64,000 bases of DNA from assembly GCA_020850355.1 (NCBI GenBank), contig JADZEX010000020.1, positions 124,001 through 188,000 of the forward strand, read 5' to 3'. Each line of letters begins with the position of its first letter. The stretch's first letter is position 1. Position numbers and translations under genes: made by a program. Shown one piece after another: positions 22,686-30,110 of the stretch. This stretch comes from Fimbriimonadaceae bacterium (GTDB lineage: Bacteria; Armatimonadota; UBA10988). The notes beneath the pieces were generated by a model. It made no database searches, was not told where the DNA came from, and was given only the letters and a program-made list of their open reading frames with translations.

Positions 22686-23471
22686 TCAGCGCGTCGCCGG
22701 CGGGCTGTCCTGGAGCGACACCCGCAGCGCCAGGCGGCTCTCGTTGAGGGGGTCGAAGGTCGTCAGCTCGACGCCTTCGGCGGTCCGGGCGAGCTGCTGC
22801 GGTACCAGGCCCGGGCTGCCCGGGGCGGTCCAGGTCCGCCCACTGCGCGGATCGGTGACGGTCCAGGTCTGCGTCTGCGGGGTCAGCTCGAGCTGCACGC
22901 CGCGACTCCGGAGGCGGGCCAGGGCGGCGCCCTGGAAGGCGGTCTGGTAGTCGGCGACGTTGCCGAGCCTGACGCAGGTCAGCTCGTCGACCAGCACGTC
23001 GGTCGGCCCCGTGCCGATCACCCGCGGCTCGACGAAGGTCAGGCCGGCCGGCACCAGCAGTCGCGTGCGGAGCTGCACCCAGGCGGTGCGTGGCCCGCGG
23101 GCGGAGACGGCGCCGGCGGCCCACTGCACGCCGCTGTCGCCGGTCGGCGGCCAGAGGGTCGCACACAGCACGATCTCGCCGCTGTCGGCTGGCAGCACCC
23201 AGGCGGTCAGCTCGAAGAAGTCCCCGGCCACCGCCGGCAGGCGCGGGCCCGGGTTCAGCGACCAATCCTGCGCACCGCGATGCTGCACCCGCAGCGCCCG
23301 CTGCCCGCTGTGGGCGCGCTCCGCCAGGCTGACCGTCAGCTCGGCCGCACCAGCGCGGCACCAGCCGCGGGACCAGCCGCTGGGCCAACCGTCGGTCAGC
23401 TCCTCGCAACCACCGTTGGGTAGCAGGTTCGGCCCTGCCAACCAGAGGCTCAGCCAGAGCAGCGTGTTCAT
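22686..23471 (-). CDS. Secreted carbohydrate-binding-like protein, third gene of the DUF6785/FtsX operon
   Basis: 261 residues. A short signal peptide (MNTLLWLSLWLAGPNLLP) is followed by a jellyroll-like region starting NGGCEELTDGWPSGWSRGW, a pattern common at the front of secreted CBM-type beta-sandwiches (roughly 20-150). A second segment (about 175-255) with TWTVTDPRSGRTWTAPG resembles the N-terminal beta-domain of large glycoside hydrolases, yet the frame stops soon after. It may therefore be a truncated enzyme or a stand-alone binding protein. The ATG overlaps the FtsX-fusion stop (ATGA), so it is coupled. It ends 12 bases from a convergent gene. Confidence 0.6.
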   Translation of the reverse strand: MNTLLWLSLWLAGPNLLPNGGCEELTDGWPSGWSRGWCRAGAAELTVSLAERAHSGQRALRVQHRGAQDWSLNPGPRLPAVAGDFFELTAWVLPADSGEIVLCATLWPPTGDSGVQWAAGAVSARGPRTAWVQLRTRLLVPAGLTFVEPRVIGTGPTDVLVDELTCVRLGNVADYQTAFQGAALARLRSRGVQLELTPQTQTWTVTDPRSGRTWTAPGSPGLVPQQLARTAEGVELTTFDPLNESRLALRVSLQDSPPATR

Positions 23472-26400
23472 GCGGCAACCTCCCCGCGCAGGGCGGCTGC
23501 GCCGCGTTCGGCGTAGGCTGCCCGCTGCGGCGGCGCGACGGTGCGCCAGATCAGGAACTGCTGGCGCAGGATGTTGATGAACAGCCAGTTGGTCCGCCGC
23601 CACCCGTTGTCATCGCCGCTGATACGTTCGATGCCGATGTCGACGGCGTAGACCTGCGGGTCGTCGGGTTCAGGAATGGTCAGCAGCTCGACGCGTTGAC
23701 TGACTCCCAGATCGTACGGCGCCAGCCAGACCGTGAAGGCCAGCCGCAGGCCGCCGCCCGGGCGTGGCGCAAAGTCGGTGCGGTCGCAGTAGAAGTCGCC
23801 CCCGGCGAAGTCGACGTAGCTGTCGAAGTACTCGCGCAGGAAGGTGTTGCAGGCCAGGCCGTCGCGGCCGGTCAGCATGAACGGTAGCCGGAACCGCATC
23901 ACGTGGCCGTCGGGCACCGGCAACCGCCAGCGCCGCTCGACATCCGGGGTCGCCGCCCGGGCCGCCTTGCGGGCCGGGTAGAGCGAGCTCAGCAACACCG
24001 TGGCGATGATGATCGCCGCGACTCCGACGGTCGCCGTCGAGGAGTAGTTCAGGCTGATGCCCGCCAGCCCGCCCAGGTACTGCTGGCTGACCGCCCAGGT
24101 CACCAGCTTGGCGACCGCCTGACCCAGCAGGTAGCCCAGAATCACGCCCAGGTTGGCGAAGACGCAGCTCTCGGCCAAGAACAGCGTCGCGACATGGGCC
24201 GGCGCCAGGCCGATGCTGCTGAAGATGCCGATCTCGCGGAAGCGCTCCATGACCGCGCCGAGCATCGTGTTAAGCACGATCAGCGCGGCGATGATCAACG
24301 GGATCACGACCGTCGTCAGACCGCTGACTCCGGTGCTGCCGATGCTGCTGTAGAGCGCCACCCGCCCCTCGCCAGCTCCGTAGGCCGACAGCTCGAAGCG
24401 GTCCATCAGGGCCTTCGCCGCCGGATGCACCTGCCGCTCGTCGCCGAACCGAACGGCCACCGAACGGAGCGTTCCCCCGAGGGCCATCACGCGGTCGAAT
24501 GGCAGCAGGATCTGCGCCTCGGCCGCGTAGTGCGTGTAGCGGTCAATCGGCGGCGGTGCCACGCTGCCGAGCTTCAGCTTCTGGGCCTGCTGGTCGGTCA
24601 GCATCTTCAGCTTCTCGGGCTCCAGCTTGGAGAAGTCGACCGGCGTCAGCGGCTCGCCGTCGAGGTCGACCACCTGGTCCAGAGCGCTGTCTTCGAGCAC
24701 CCCGATCACCGCCAGCGAGCTCCCGAAGGCGGCCACCCGGCCGAACACCCCCGGCTCCCCGGTAGGCTGCAGCTTGAGCTTCGCGGCGACGCTGCTCGGC
24801 ACGATGCAGACGTTCTGCTCGCCCGGCCGGAACCAGCGCCCGGCACCCATCTGGCGGCCCAGGCCGCTGACCGCGGGCTCCTCGGCGGTGACGCCCAGGA
24901 TCGCGTTGATCACCAGCGGATCGCCCCCACCGGCGGCGTTGGCGATGTTCAGCTTGAGCTGCTTGTCGAGCTGCGAGCTGACCAGCCAGCAGCGCGCCGT
25001 AACCAGCCCCTGACGACCGAACTGGTTGCCCAGAATGCGCGCCGTCGGCTGCTCCAGGGCGCTCCAGACGGGGTCGCGGACCAACAGGCCGGGATAGACC
25101 ACTTGCGTCTGCACCGGCAACTCATTGCTGCGCAGGCCGGTCTTGACCGAGGTGAAGCTGAGCACCGTGAAGGTCAGCAGGATCAGCGTCACCGCGGTCA
25201 GCGCGGTGCGCAGCGGCCGGCGGCGCATGTTGCTGATACCCAGGGCAAACGCCGCGCCGAGCGTGCCGGCGCGACTCACATCGGCGGTGTGCTGCCCGCT
25301 GACCGCCTGCTGCAGCACCTGCAACTCTTCGTTGAAGCGCCGGCTGACGATGGCGATCACCAGCGTCGCCAGCGACATGATCACGAACCCGAGCAGAATG
25401 ATCCAGGGCGTGTCGAGCAGCCGGAAGGCCGGATGCACGGCGTTCAGGGCGCAGTAGACGACCACGAAGATGGCGATGGTCTTGAGGATCTGATCCTGAA
25501 TCCGCGGCGCTGCGAAGAGCAGCCGCTCGGCGAAGAAGGCGAACGGCAGCAGCAGCGCGAGGTAGAAGAGGACGCCCTTGATGGTGTCGGACTCGGTGCC
25601 ACGAACATCGGGATAGGCCCGCGCCTCGAACGCCCAGGCGGTGCGCGCTGCGGCCAGGTGCGCCGCCCAGTCGCGCGCCTGCAGCGCCGCGCTGGCGGTG
25701 TCGAGGTACTGCTTGGCCTTGCCGTGCAGATCGTCCAGCCGCAGGCTGCTGATGCCGAAGCCACGCTGCCGCTGCATTCGGAACTCGTCGACCCGCCACA
25801 TGTCGAGGGCCGCCTGGTAGGAGGTCCGCACCAGCCGCGGCGTCGCCGCCGGGTCGAAGCCCTCGCCCTCCGGCGTCTGCGGCGTGGCGTTGACCAGAAT
25901 CAGCCGCAGGCCCAGCAGGCCCATGCCCATCGTGACCTTAACCCGCATCGCCCGCGGCGCATAGACCACCGCCACCGGCTCGACGTAACTGGCTGACACG
26001 GTCCCGGTGATCTTGGCCGGCGGGCTGTGGACCGGCAACTCGTAGCCGAAGGTCCGCGGCTCGCTGTCGGTGCGGGCGTCGTAGATGTAGAGCTGCTGCA
26101 GAGTCTCGAAATAGCGCTCGTCGGTGAGGTCGAACAACGACAGCGGCTGGCACGGGAAGACGATCAGCGGCCGGCGCAGCCCGCTGCGGCCTTGGGTCAA
26201 CCGCGGGTACTTCAGCTCGCCCTCGGGGCCGAGGTCGGGCGCGTAGCTGATCTGCCCGGTCCCCGGCTCGATCCCATAGGCGTCGATCTTCAGCGTCGCG
26301 CTGTCCGGCTGGCCGACTAGCCGCCAGTCGCCGCGGGCGTCCGCCATCGTCAGGATGTCGGGCCGCACGCCCATCATGCTGACGGCGTCGTTCTTCAGCA

Positions 26401-28093
26401 CCACCAGCGCGTGCGGCACCGGGGTGTTTGGCAAGAACGTCTTCTTGCGCTCGAACTCGTAGATCATCCCGGCCAGCGGCTGGTACTTGTAGGGCAGCCG
26501 CTTGACCCGCCGCAGCCCGTCGCTGACCAGTCCGCGGTCGTCGGCCGCGGCGGCCAGGACCGCGCAGACGGCCTGCGTCTGGCGCAGCAGGTTGGCCTGG
26601 TTGAGGAACTCCGGCCGGTCGCTGGGGGTGTCGACCCGCGGCCGGGAGTCCTCGATGGTGAACAGCGTCACCGCCGGTCGGCCGGCCTGCACCAGCGGCT
26701 CGGCATCGCTGGCGAACTGGTCGGGGACCCAACTGTCCCAGGCCCGGTCCTGCGCCGGGTTGACGCAGTCGACTACCGCGCCAGGCAGCCCAGCGCTCCC
26801 TCCATAGCCGACGAAACGCTTGCCGAGCGGCGACAGGAAGCGCAGCAGGCTGTTGTCGCCGTAGAAGTGACCGGCGTGGAAGATGCCCAGGCGGTTGCTG
26901 CCGCTGGAAAGGTCCAGGGCGATGCTGAGGGTGTAGTCGAAGTTGGCGTAGAACTCGCTGGCGAGCTCCGCATCCTGCTGCGCGATGGCCTGCTGGACCG
27001 CCAGCTCCTGCCGCCAGATCGCCAACTCGGCGGCGGCGAGGCGCGGCTCGGCGGCCTGCTGGAGCTGCTGCAACTCGGTTACCAGCGCGCGGTTGGCGGC
27101 GTCGATCTGCGGCCAGGCCTGCGGCCAGCGGTCGCGGGGATGCTCGCGGCGCAGCACGTTGGCGAAGGCCCGCGCCCCGGCCAGGGCCTGGTGATGCGCG
27201 TCGAGCGCCACGAACAGCACCGTCCGCGCCGGCTGGTGCTCAAACAGCAGCCGCGCCGCCTCCAAGAGCGCCGCCAGGCCGCCAAGCTGCTCGGCGCCGG
27301 GGGCCGCTTCGAGCACCACCGAGCTGCTGTCGTAGTAGGCCGTGACGATCAGGCACTCCCGCCGCAGCGTCTCGTCGCGGCCGGGCAGGAACCCAAGGAT
27401 GTTGTTGCCTTCGACCATCCGCCAGTCGGCCGCCGCCTGGATCTGCCCGCGGCCGAGCTCCCGGCCGCGCGGACCGTTCGCCAGCAGCGCGGCGGCGACG
27501 GCTTGCGACAACCAGAAGCGCGGCACGTCGACCGGGGTGTTGAGCACCTTGGTGCTCAACTCGCCACGCCCGGCATGGGCCGTCTCGACGAAGACCACCG
27601 CGCCCGCGCCGAGCAAGGCGGCATCCAGCCAGCGCTGCCCGCAGTCGGCCGCGACCAGCACAATCGCGCCGTCGAGGTTGCGCCCGCGGTACCGCCCCAG
27701 GTCGCCGTCGACCGCGTCGACCACCGGTCCCGCCAGCCCGCCGACCGGCAGCGCGCTGAGCCGTACCAGATTCGGGGCGAGGGTCCCCAGCGGCAGCCGC
27801 TGCCCGGCGAGGGTCAGCCAGGCGCCCTGGCTCTGCGGCACCGGCAGCAGGAAGCGCTGTCGCACGACGCTCTGCAGGCCGAGTTCGCGGAACCGCGCTT
27901 CGATCATCGCGGCGGCGCCCTGACCGCCGGAGGCGCCCGGCGCGCGGGGCGCAATGTTGCAGAAGCGCTGCTGGTACTCGCGCAGCAGCGTCGGCGAGAC
28001 GCCCGCGGCGACTTCCGCCGGCCCCGCCGCCAGCGGCGCCAGAGCCAGCAGCAGCGCCGTCAGCGCCAGGCGGCTAGCCGAACCAGATGCCAT
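23468..28093 (-). CDS. Giant fusion of a degenerate M28 peptidase domain and an FtsX/MacB-type permease
   Basis: 1541 residues from the ATG at 28093 (GGAG upstream, signal peptide ASGSASRLALTALLLALAPL). Residues about 30-480 have the M28 aminopeptidase outline, but the metal site is lost: the HYD histidine is Tyr253 (YYDSSS), the bridging Asp is Gln269, and the Glu-Glu pair is His300-His301 (ALDAHHQALAG). A beta-rich region follows (500-830), then an FtsX-like permease with about eight membrane helices, including RRPLRTALTAVTLILLTF and a C-terminal LIVLNTMLGAVMERFREIGI segment, and a soluble tail. FtsX permeases usually pair with a MacB/LolD-type ATPase; none is adjacent. It overlaps both neighbours in its operon. 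The architecture is clear, the function unknown. Confidence 0.85.
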   Translation of the reverse strand: MASGSASRLALTALLLALAPLAAGPAEVAAGVSPTLLREYQQRFCNIAPRAPGASGGQGAAAMIEARFRELGLQSVVRQRFLLPVPQSQGAWLTLAGQRLPLGTLAPNLVRLSALPVGGLAGPVVDAVDGDLGRYRGRNLDGAIVLVAADCGQRWLDAALLGAGAVVFVETAHAGRGELSTKVLNTPVDVPRFWLSQAVAAALLANGPRGRELGRGQIQAAADWRMVEGNNILGFLPGRDETLRRECLIVTAYYDSSSVVLEAAPGAEQLGGLAALLEAARLLFEHQPARTVLFVALDAHHQALAGARAFANVLRREHPRDRWPQAWPQIDAANRALVTELQQLQQAAEPRLAAAELAIWRQELAVQQAIAQQDAELASEFYANFDYTLSIALDLSSGSNRLGIFHAGHFYGDNSLLRFLSPLGKRFVGYGGSAGLPGAVVDCVNPAQDRAWDSWVPDQFASDAEPLVQAGRPAVTLFTIEDSRPRVDTPSDRPEFLNQANLLRQTQAVCAVLAAAADDRGLVSDGLRRVKRLPYKYQPLAGMIYEFERKKTFLPNTPVPHALVVLKNDAVSMMGVRPDILTMADARGDWRLVGQPDSATLKIDAYGIEPGTGQISYAPDLGPEGELKYPRLTQGRSGLRRPLIVFPCQPLSLFDLTDERYFETLQQLYIYDARTDSEPRTFGYELPVHSPPAKITGTVSASYVEPVAVVYAPRAMRVKVTMGMGLLGLRLILVNATPQTPEGEGFDPAATPRLVRTSYQAALDMWRVDEFRMQRQRGFGISSLRLDDLHGKAKQYLDTASAALQARDWAAHLAAARTAWAFEARAYPDVRGTESDTIKGVLFYLALLLPFAFFAERLLFAAPRIQDQILKTIAIFVVVYCALNAVHPAFRLLDTPWIILLGFVIMSLATLVIAIVSRRFNEELQVLQQAVSGQHTADVSRAGTLGAAFALGISNMRRRPLRTALTAVTLILLTFTVLSFTSVKTGLRSNELPVQTQVVYPGLLVRDPVWSALEQPTARILGNQFGRQGLVTARCWLVSSQLDKQLKLNIANAAGGGDPLVINAILGVTAEEPAVSGLGRQMGAGRWFRPGEQNVCIVPSSVAAKLKLQPTGEPGVFGRVAAFGSSLAVIGVLEDSALDQVVDLDGEPLTPVDFSKLEPEKLKMLTDQQAQKLKLGSVAPPPIDRYTHYAAEAQILLPFDRVMALGGTLRSVAVRFGDERQVHPAAKALMDRFELSAYGAGEGRVALYSSIGSTGVSGLTTVVIPLIIAALIVLNTMLGAVMERFREIGIFSSIGLAPAHVATLFLAESCVFANLGVILGYLLGQAVAKLVTWAVSQQYLGGLAGISLNYSSTATVGVAAIIIATVLLSSLYPARKAARAATPDVERRWRLPVPDGHVMRFRLPFMLTGRDGLACNTFLREYFDSYVDFAGGDFYCDRTDFAPRPGGGLRLAFTVWLAPYDLGVSQRVELLTIPEPDDPQVYAVDIGIERISGDDNGWRRTNWLFINILRQQFLIWRTVAPPQRAAYAERGAAALRGEVAA

Positions 28094-30047
28094 ACTTCTC
28101 CGCCAGCTCTTCATTGAAGACCGCCACCGTGCCCCAGAGCACCCCGGCCGTGAAGAAGTGCCCCAGCACAATCCCCACGAACAGCGGGATCAACTGCTTG
28201 TAGAGCCGCACCCCACCGACCCGCAGGATGCCGCTCTTGACGATCCAGACCAGCAGCGAGGGTCCCCACATGTGGGGATGCGCCAAGGTCATCGCGAAGC
28301 CCAGCGGGTGGAGCGGGAACCGCAGGAAGGCCGCTCGCAGGACCACCAGCCCGCCGGTGATCAGGAACCCGGTGAAGAGCGCCAGGTTGCGCCGCAGGTC
28401 CGGCGCCAGGGGGCTCTTGATCCACGTCGCGATATCGGTCTGCGCGTCGCGCATCAGCTTGATGCGGTAGCCGCCGTCGGTGGTGCCGCGCTCCAGGACG
28501 TTGCCGCCGTACTGGTAAAAGGTGTCGAGATGCGACCAGGCGGCCAGCCCGAAGCCGATCACCGCCGCCAGCAGCAGCGCCCAGACCAGGTCGCGCCGCC
28601 GGGCGTGGACCTCGTCACCCAGCCGCAAGGCCTCGATCTGGCTGCCCGCGGTGGTCGGGTAGAAGCCGCGCGCCAGCCAGGCGAAGCCATGCAAGATGGC
28701 CAGCGACTGGAAGTTCTCGCCCGGCGCCAGCCGCGCGGAGCCGAACAGGTTGGTGAGGCACTTCTGCTGCTCCCAGTACGGGAACAGCCAGACCATCGGC
28801 GCCCCGGTCTCGGCGCGGATCCGGGTGTAGGTCAGCGCCACCCCGAGGATCAGGCCGAAGTAGAGCAGCGCCAGCCAGAGCGCCATGCCCGCCAGGACCG
28901 CCCAGCCGAGGATGAACGCCAGGCAGACCACCAGCCCGGCGAAGGCCGCCCGGTAGCTCACGGCTTCACCCGCATCGAGACCCGGGTCACCGCGCCCTAC
29001 CACGCGCTGCAGCGCGGCCCAGAGATGCCGTCGGCCGACCCAGACGACGAACAGCGTCAGTGCCAGGTAGCCGCCCATGCAGAGTTCGCGGTCGAACGGG
29101 AAGCCCGGAATGCGGTCGGCCGCGCCGGTCATCGTGGCCAGCACCTTGCTCAGCCGGACCAACAGATAGAAGACCCAACAGGAGAGCGTGATCTCGGTCG
29201 ACATGAGGTAGCCGAGGCCGAAGATCTCCGGTCGCCAGGCGATGTTCAGGTCGGACAGTGCGCTCCAGGGGCGTTCGGTGAACAGTCCGCCGACCTGAAA
29301 CCCGACCCCGGGCGCGGGGACCGCCGGGTTCACAGCGTGCAGCATGTTGAGCAGATTGTAGATGAACGAGACGCCGATACCGACCCAGAACAGCGGGTTC
29401 CGCAGCACCGTGGCGAGGCCGCGCTGGTTGTCCGGGGTGAGCGTCAGGACGAACTGCACCAGCGGGAAGCTGAGCCGCTCGCGCTCGGTCCACTGTTTGC
29501 GCAACAGCAGGTTGAGGCACAGCATCGCGCCGAAGATGGCCAGGGCGAAAAGGCCCCACAGCAGCATCGGCTGCAGCCAGACGCCCCAGGGCACGGCCTC
29601 GCCCGCGGCGCCTTCGTAGAGTTCTCGAATCACCTCGGGGTCGCGCGGGCCGTACCAGCTCGGAATCAGCTCCCAGATCTGCGCCAGGCCGTTCTCGGGA
29701 GTCGCGAAGTACTGCGCGACGTTGGTGGCCGGCAGCATCATCCGCATCATGCCGACCGAGCTGAAGGTCGGCGCCACCGACATCACCACGAAGATCACCA
29801 CCAGCTCGGCGCGGCGGAGCGCCAGGCGGGGGTGCAAGCGGGTCAGCAGCGGATTGAGCAGCAGGAACAGCGCCAGCGCGGCGACCGCCGGGACGACCGG
29901 GACGGCCTCGCTGATCTGCGTGGTGTGGCTGATCATCTCGACCCGGCGAATCCAGAGCGTGGCCCCAAACGCCAGGGCCAACGCCAGCACGAGCGAGCGG
30001 AGCGTCAGTCCGCGCTCCAGGGGAGCCGGTCGATCGGGCGGTTCCAC
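28074..30047 (-). CDS. DUF6785/DUF6784 multi-pass membrane protein (OPT-transporter-like)
   Basis: 657 residues from the GTG at 30047; GGAGG lies 8 bases upstream. About 14 membrane helices fill the chain. Recognised features are LRSLVLALALAFGATLW at the start, SYRAAFAGLVVCLAFILGWA in the middle and a C-terminal LAHPHMWGPSLLVWIVKSG, as I recall for DUF6785/DUF6784 proteins of Planctomycetes, Armatimonadota and relatives. These look distantly like oligopeptide (OPT) transporters, but no substrate is known. Its end overlaps the FtsX-fusion start by 20 bases, and it is the first gene behind a strong promoter. I infer a transport or export role shared with the next two genes. Confidence 0.82.
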   Translation of the reverse strand: MEPPDRPAPLERGLTLRSLVLALALAFGATLWIRRVEMISHTTQISEAVPVVPAVAALALFLLLNPLLTRLHPRLALRRAELVVIFVVMSVAPTFSSVGMMRMMLPATNVAQYFATPENGLAQIWELIPSWYGPRDPEVIRELYEGAAGEAVPWGVWLQPMLLWGLFALAIFGAMLCLNLLLRKQWTERERLSFPLVQFVLTLTPDNQRGLATVLRNPLFWVGIGVSFIYNLLNMLHAVNPAVPAPGVGFQVGGLFTERPWSALSDLNIAWRPEIFGLGYLMSTEITLSCWVFYLLVRLSKVLATMTGAADRIPGFPFDRELCMGGYLALTLFVVWVGRRHLWAALQRVVGRGDPGLDAGEAVSYRAAFAGLVVCLAFILGWAVLAGMALWLALLYFGLILGVALTYTRIRAETGAPMVWLFPYWEQQKCLTNLFGSARLAPGENFQSLAILHGFAWLARGFYPTTAGSQIEALRLGDEVHARRRDLVWALLLAAVIGFGLAAWSHLDTFYQYGGNVLERGTTDGGYRIKLMRDAQTDIATWIKSPLAPDLRRNLALFTGFLITGGLVVLRAAFLRFPLHPLGFAMTLAHPHMWGPSLLVWIVKSGILRVGGVRLYKQLIPLFVGIVLGHFFTAGVLWGTVAVFNEELAEKYGIWFG

Positions 30048-30081
30048 GCGCCACACCTCCACGCTGTTGCAGCCCGCCCGG

Positions 30082-30110
30082 ACATTACCGCAGCGCGATC
30101 CGCGCGTCAA
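30082..30110 (-). promoter_or_regulatory. Promoter of the DUF6785 / degenerate M28-FtsX / binding-protein operon
   Basis: On the minus strand, TTGACG (30110-30105) and TAATGT (30087-30082) are separated by 17 bases. The start near 30075 leaves a leader of about 28 bases that contains GGAGG before the GTG at 30047. No other promoter is seen for the two downstream genes. Confidence 0.65.

Follow-up and report, generated by a model that had tools for sequence, protein, structure and literature searches.

How might a permease work when the peptidase-like domain fused to it has an altered active site and no ATPase is encoded beside it? This question is raised by one gene in a 64,000-nucleotide stretch of DNA from a Fimbriimonadaceae bacterium (contig JADZEX010000020.1, positions 124,001 to 188,000; hereafter the window). 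Its product, P0001, joins an M28 peptidase-like domain to an FtsX permease. We consider it probable that P0001 forms the large subunit of a so far uncharacterised ATP-binding cassette (ABC) complex of Type VII, the kind formed by MacB, LolCDE and FtsEX, and that the motor of this complex is shared. A cognate ATPase is encoded in the genome, and we infer that it serves P0001 itself.

The gene is a single open frame that joins M28 to FtsX, as a first-pass annotation of the window had reported, and Pfam matches both parts. An artefact or frameshift as the source of the fusion was ruled out by the clean frame and by full-length relatives. The protein is laid out as follows (TM, transmembrane).

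23468..28093, reverse strand: P0001, M28(PA)-FtsX fusion protein of 1541 amino acids (aa), single open frame
28001..28093, reverse strand: N-terminal hydrophobic signal or anchor, residues 1-31 (sequence and hydropathy)
26534..27961, reverse strand: PA and M28-like extracytoplasmic domain, residues ~45-520 (profile match to 2ek8 and 6hc6; conservation by region)
25334..25588, reverse strand: three extra TM helices, residues ~836-920 (hydropathy)
24344..25261, reverse strand: FtsX TM1 and MacB-type extracytoplasmic domain, residues ~945-1250 (profile alignment, hydropathy)
23954..24343, reverse strand: FtsX TM2-4 core, residues ~1251-1380 (Pfam, hydropathy)
24200..24247, reverse strand: coupling-helix motif ERFREIGIFSSIGLAP, residues 1283-1298, between TM2 and TM3 (family alignment)
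23471..23944, reverse strand: conserved C-terminal domain, residues 1384-1541, probably cytosolic (conservation by region)

The Pfam search placed Peptidase_M28 at residues 231-336 (E-value (E) 4e-10; 40.1 bits against a cut-off of 21.3) and FtsX at residues 1263-1379 (E 5e-12), and gave no match for the C-terminal domain. A profile of 37 family members matched the solved M28 aminopeptidases 2ek8 (E 1.6e-23) and 6hc6 (E 1.6e-20) over a span that includes the PA domain, and its second half matched MacB (5lil), YtrF, LolF and LolC (7arh). The PA and M28-like domain of P0001 holds a poorly conserved insert at residues ~322-385. Pfam, profile and hydropathy evidence together describe an FtsX unit of four TM helices with the outer domain between TM1 and TM2; a MacB_PCD match was seen in the paralogue of P0001, below threshold. 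Judged from the alignment, the coupling motif between TM2 and TM3 appears to be kept with few changes in all 37 rows, the P0001 clade included. The position of the coupling helix in Type VII permeases was taken from an excerpt of PMC5985334. Against the curated NCBIfam models for LolCDE, MacB, FtsEX and ADOP, the scores of P0001 were all far under the cut-offs.

We compared 61 genomes, comprising the genome that holds the window (G000) and 60 relatives, all from the same phylum. The fusion is present in 53 of them; the other eight (G006, G016, G023, G029, G033, G036, G042 and G056) gave weak permease matches only (E 2.5e-12 or weaker). Fusions outside the P0001 clade, here called ordinary, commonly stand in a cluster on one strand: the fusion, p680 (~670 aa, polytopic by sequence), often p300, a small FtsX subunit and a LolD-like ATPase. 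Within 3 kb downstream, p680 was found for 33 of 35 ordinary members. The ATPase and small FtsX lay within 6 kb on the same strand in 19 of the 35 (16 downstream, 3 upstream), and 16 had no ATPase nearby in the stretch read. In the genome of P0001, the corresponding pair lies on contig C89.

G000:C89:4150-4935: LolD-like family ATPase (C89 ATPase search and family scores)
C89:3148-4146 (L089:3148-4146): small FtsX subunit, beside the ATPase

Used as a query, the C89 ATPase gave exactly one match at E<=1e-90 in 51 of the 61 genomes. Against three family ATPases it reaches 381-405 bits, compared with 236-246 bits for the next ATPase of its own genome, and in a tree it groups with the cluster ATPases. 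The small FtsX has the full coupling-helix motif and almost no outer loop between TM1 and TM2, as do its orthologues. Fusion and ATPase occur together in 51 genomes and are both missing from eight; the fusion occurs alone in two and the ATPase alone in none (Fisher 1.5e-8, relatedness ignored). One of the two exceptions is a 61% complete genome (G051); in the other (G058), a family ATPase frame of reduced length, scoring 285 bits, lies at the expected place (L065). The pattern for p680 is similar: both in 52 genomes, neither in eight, the fusion alone in one and p680 alone in none (Fisher 3e-9, relatedness ignored). An insensitive scan of a wider contig collection with P0001 returned one unrelated Bacteroidetes permease, and an insensitive scan of viral contigs with the family alignment returned zero matches.

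The first-pass annotation had noted that no ATPase lies near P0001 and had read it as a permease without a dedicated one. The observation stands within the window, where the sole frame with ABC ATPase motifs lies at ~4.7-5.6 kb, 18 kb from P0001; this protein, taken for LptB in the first pass, was rejected as a partner at 85-89 bits against the family ATPases. Genome-wide the observation fails, given the ATPase and small FtsX on C89. The reading falls with it: the genome encodes a dedicated ATPase with the same phyletic pattern as the fusion, which is what the first pass had itself named as a refutation, and the coupling-helix motif is conserved in the permease.

How, then, does P0001 relate to the ordinary fusions? 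Its genome also carries an ordinary fusion (C21:212648-218617), 60 kb from P0001, with p680 directly downstream. In a tree of the permease part, P0001 and six relatives form one clade (Shimodaira-Hasegawa-like approximate likelihood ratio test (SH-aLRT) 100; quick search, no bootstrap). An eighth member, cut off by a contig end in G055, was assigned by score (1408 bits to a clade member against 960 to the best ordinary member). The P0001 type was thereby found in 8 of the 61 genomes, in seven families of the phylum; the remaining fusion-bearing genomes were classed as ordinary by the tree or by p680 beside the best match, G034 and G060 by relatives only. None of seven P0001-type members has p680 nearby. 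The neighbour of P0001 is a different polytopic protein.

28074..30110, reverse strand: polytopic DUF6785/DUF6784 protein directly upstream of P0001 (Pfam, neighbourhood)

The end of the DUF6785 gene overlaps the start of P0001 by 20 bases (28074 vs 28093). Such a gene lies directly upstream of five of the seven P0001-type members, and a further one at 3 kb brings the count to six.

A second p680 with no adjoining fusion occurs in G000, G002, G004, G013, G027, G040, G050 and G055, which are exactly the P0001-type genomes. Its surroundings were read in all eight, in three cases on a contig of 3.8-5.7 kb; additional p680 pieces in G055 were left unplaced.

G000:C12:29039-30976 (L108): second, solitary p680 of the genome that holds the window

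The second copies group in a single clade (SH-aLRT 92), with a branching order that resembles that of the P0001 tree. A chance match of two eight-genome sets among 61 has a probability of 3e-10 under independence, an assumption that genomes do not meet. Within the family to which our genome belongs, G000 and G002 hold both the P0001 type and the second p680, and G001 and G003 hold neither. The family ATPase is single-copy in P0001-type genomes despite the second p680. In G050 the only fusion is of the P0001 type: the three matches to the ordinary-fusion query (E<=1e-20) all fall in one gene, p680 has no fusion frame upstream, and the ATPase and small FtsX are present. Most simply, a joint duplication of fusion and p680 would account for this, with one motor serving both versions.

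What has become of the peptidase site? The residues concerned are these.

27329..27337, reverse strand: Y253-Y254-D255, the HxD motif with His changed to Tyr (profile and family alignment)
27287..27292, reverse strand: E268-Q269, at the position of the bridging Asp (profile and family alignment)
27191..27196, reverse strand: H300-H301, at the Glu-Glu position (profile and family alignment)
26912..26914, reverse strand: D394, the proposed counterpart of the metal Asp that is kept (family alignment)
26618..26635, reverse strand: V487-D488-T-P-S-D492, with Asp488 at the last metal His (profile and family alignment)

Profile alignment to 2ek8 and 6hc6, and comparison with M28 peptidases of the same genome, bore out three replacements named in the first pass: His by Tyr253, Asp by Gln269, and the Glu-Glu pair by His300-His301. 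The fourth, of the last metal His by Val, has to be corrected. Val487 aligns with the preceding Tyr of YHTPxDT and Asp488 with the His ('vdtpfDt' over 'yhTPnDT'); the peptidase L095 of the same genome, which reads WHTTHDT, agrees with this. Asp394 and Asp488 were assigned by motif and position, since the profile alignment gives thin coverage of the second half of the M28 domain (second stretch of 2ek8, -2.4 bits). So aligned, the metal ligands His, Asp, Glu, Asp and His become Y253, Q269, H301, D394 and D488, of which one is canonical.

The substitutions are family-wide rather than specific to P0001. Among 37 family members, Asp255, Asp394 and His300, which occupies the catalytic-Glu position, are each invariant, Asp stands at 488 in 36, and Glu268, overlooked in the first pass, is kept in 35. 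Position 253 reads Y 30, F 4, H 1, W 1, N 1. The bridging-Asp position 269, where one residue is also deleted, reads S 14, Q 9, A 7, N 5, D 1, G 1; position 301, the second Glu of the pair in canonical M28 peptidases, reads F 25, H 5, C 4, others 3. None of the aligned members has the canonical site, and an earlier 42-member alignment gave the same picture. Nine M28 profile matches were found in the genome, two of them the fusions. The stand-alone peptidases L096 and L097 retain HxD, Asp and EE, and L095 retains HxD, Asp and the final His, its pair reading E-D; L098, L100, L101 and L103 have an M20-type look by eye and were excluded as M28 controls.

From the alignment, the site looks to have been rebuilt once and then retained, and decay seems very unlikely. 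Glu268 might be a place where a ligand is regained. The earlier idea that the domain turned into a ligand-binding pseudo-peptidase is strengthened, because the altered residues are constrained across the whole family; the same residues would also be compatible with a non-canonical metal site. On balance the first-pass observation is partly confirmed and its interpretation partly supported.

In Type VII systems, ATP-driven movement is relayed to outer domains and the partner often defines the function, according to excerpts of PMC12646458 and PMC5985334. In the arrangement that we propose, two copies of the C89 ATPase would sit beneath an asymmetric FtsX-fold pair, made of the minimal C89 subunit with hardly any outer domain and the large M28-bearing subunit. 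ATP binding would act through the TM2-TM3 coupling helices on the outer face (mechanotransmission) and shift the M28/PA domain. That domain, by analogy, may be the part that is moved and that binds a ligand or partner; it would have ceased to hydrolyse peptide bonds by the usual route and would instead receive, or provide a scaffold for, a ligand or the polytopic partner. The ordinary subunit on C21 (with p680) and P0001 (with DUF6785 and the separated second p680) would draw on a single ATPase/small-FtsX core. ECF (energy-coupling factor) transporters offer a comparison, one motor being common to several binding proteins. More tentatively, we think it almost as likely as not that this is a phylum-wide envelope machine in which a single-copy motor of ATPase and mini-FtsX is common to at least two interchangeable pseudo-peptidase receptors, each with its own polytopic partner. 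If correct, the fused pseudo-M28 receptor on a Type VII permease, present in 53 of 61 genomes, would add a system beside LolCDE, MacB, FtsEX and YbbAP, give an example of one motor serving several outer subunits, and form a bacterial parallel to eukaryotic M28 pseudo-enzymes. A search of the open-access literature in PMC found no paper on an M28-FtsX fusion system.

Several observations weigh against this proposal. None of the seven P0001-clade members has an ATPase nearby. The family branch of the ATPase tree has an SH-aLRT of 90, with long branches outside. There are other LolD-like ATPases in the genome (on C52, C46, C71 and C41), which we rejected as dedicated partners because each adjoins its own FtsX gene. 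Seven of the eight P0001-type genomes also hold an ordinary copy, possibly the only partner of the ATPase, and the eighth, G050, is one draft assembly with a completeness of 96%. As for the M28 domain, a different metal site, probably a mononuclear one, could be built from Glu268, His300, Asp394 and Asp488. An AlphaFold2 prediction of residues 33-520 from the single sequence had a predicted local distance difference test score (pLDDT) of 37.9, and this model was not used.

The alternative that survives best is that P0001 is a true orphan, namely a large subunit that arose by duplication, lost its motor and acts with DUF6785 as an ATP-independent receptor or scaffold. The missing ATPase near all seven clade members would fit, as would the new conserved neighbour with its overlapping stop and start. 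Nevertheless, 16 of 35 ordinary members are equally without a nearby ATPase, yet only 2 of 53 fusion genomes are without an ATPase match, so gene distance says little. Moreover, G050 retains the ATPase with only a P0001-type fusion, and the P0001 clade conserves the coupling-helix motif and the FtsX core to the same degree as other members do. We therefore regard an orphan as unlikely, though worth keeping in view.

Could the M28 domain still be an enzyme? A rebuilt site (Glu268, His300, Asp394, Asp488 and, in P0001, also His301) might hold one metal and carry out a different acyl or peptidyl transfer, comparable to what has been proposed for GPAA1. The near-invariant polar residues at the old site speak for such an enzyme, and in the profile alignment 2anp, a PDB chain of an Aeromonas-type aminopeptidase, has His at the same Glu position. 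We take 2anp to be a functional E151H mutant. According to an excerpt of PMC7522609, the M28-type domain of GPAA1 has neither metal His (Pro149 and Tyr328 stand there), and GPAA1 has been modelled as an enzyme with a single zinc and proposed to act in complex with a ten-TM partner; this precedent keeps a changed chemistry of the M28 domain conceivable. By contrast, nearly all members have lost the catalytic Glu along with the second Glu, the bridging Asp and the two His, and of the five ligands one canonical Asp is left, which makes an enzyme improbable in our judgement. That P0001 is a decaying pseudo-paralogue without function scarcely deserves credence: its clade has a patchy distribution, being found in 8 of 61 genomes, but the long frames are conserved, full-length and open across seven families of the phylum, and conservation of the M28 region is on a par with that of the FtsX outer domain (majority fraction 0.57 vs 0.55).

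We return to the proposed Type VII complex and its place among known systems. With MacAB-TolC, LolCDE, FtsEX-EnvC and YbbAP-TesA it shares the FtsX-fold permease, the MacB-type outer domain, the TM2-TM3 coupling helix and the LolD-like ATPase. It differs in its outer partner, which is a fused, site-altered M28/PA domain, in three extra TM helices, in a second FtsX subunit with nearly no ectodomain, in the tie to a polytopic p680 or DUF6785 partner, and in an ATPase that is apparently shared and often unlinked. A hydrolase added on the outer face is described for YbbAP in an excerpt of PMC12646458. The M28 aminopeptidases 2ek8 and 6hc6 (YwaD) have the PA and M28 layout in common with P0001, whereas its catalytic Glu and four of the five metal ligands are replaced. 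Nicalin, nicastrin and the transferrin receptor are eukaryotic membrane proteins with an M28-type domain minus the canonical site. Nicalin (2.5e-8) and the PA region of the transferrin receptor (9e-8) were matched weakly by the profile of the P0001 family. These proteins and GPAA1, however, have no FtsX permease or ABC ATPase, and a similar use would be an analogy, known by likeness and not by descent. The best NCBIfam match of P0001 is to the ADOP family of duplicated permeases (TIGR03434), at 31.5 bits against a cut-off of 622; P0001 is not duplicated, and ADOP has no M28 domain. ADOP permeases have been described as orphan.

Among the neighbours, DUF6785/DUF6784 proteins form a large paralogous family, with 24 matches in the genome of P0001 and 45 in G015. 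The open-access literature search found no paper naming DUF6785, and profile searches of the PDB with p680 and DUF6785 gave zero matches. Common descent of p680 and DUF6785 is not claimed, the hhalign probability being 44% over the N-terminal third only. Against Pfam PF03169 (OPT oligopeptide transporters), 1 of 15 p680 members matched at E 1.4e-5; in a second set of 10, which shares some members with the first, no match reached E<=0.01. In many clusters p300 (~300-360 aa; L061:3537-4610, L048:13933-14922) lies between p680 and the small FtsX, with no significant Pfam match. Downstream of P0001, a co-directional gene (22686-23528 of the window) encodes a secreted-looking protein with no Pfam match. 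Two of the family ATPases, L076:5967-6878 and L114:2006-2938, carry an N-terminal CPxC...CPxC zinc-ribbon-like extension.

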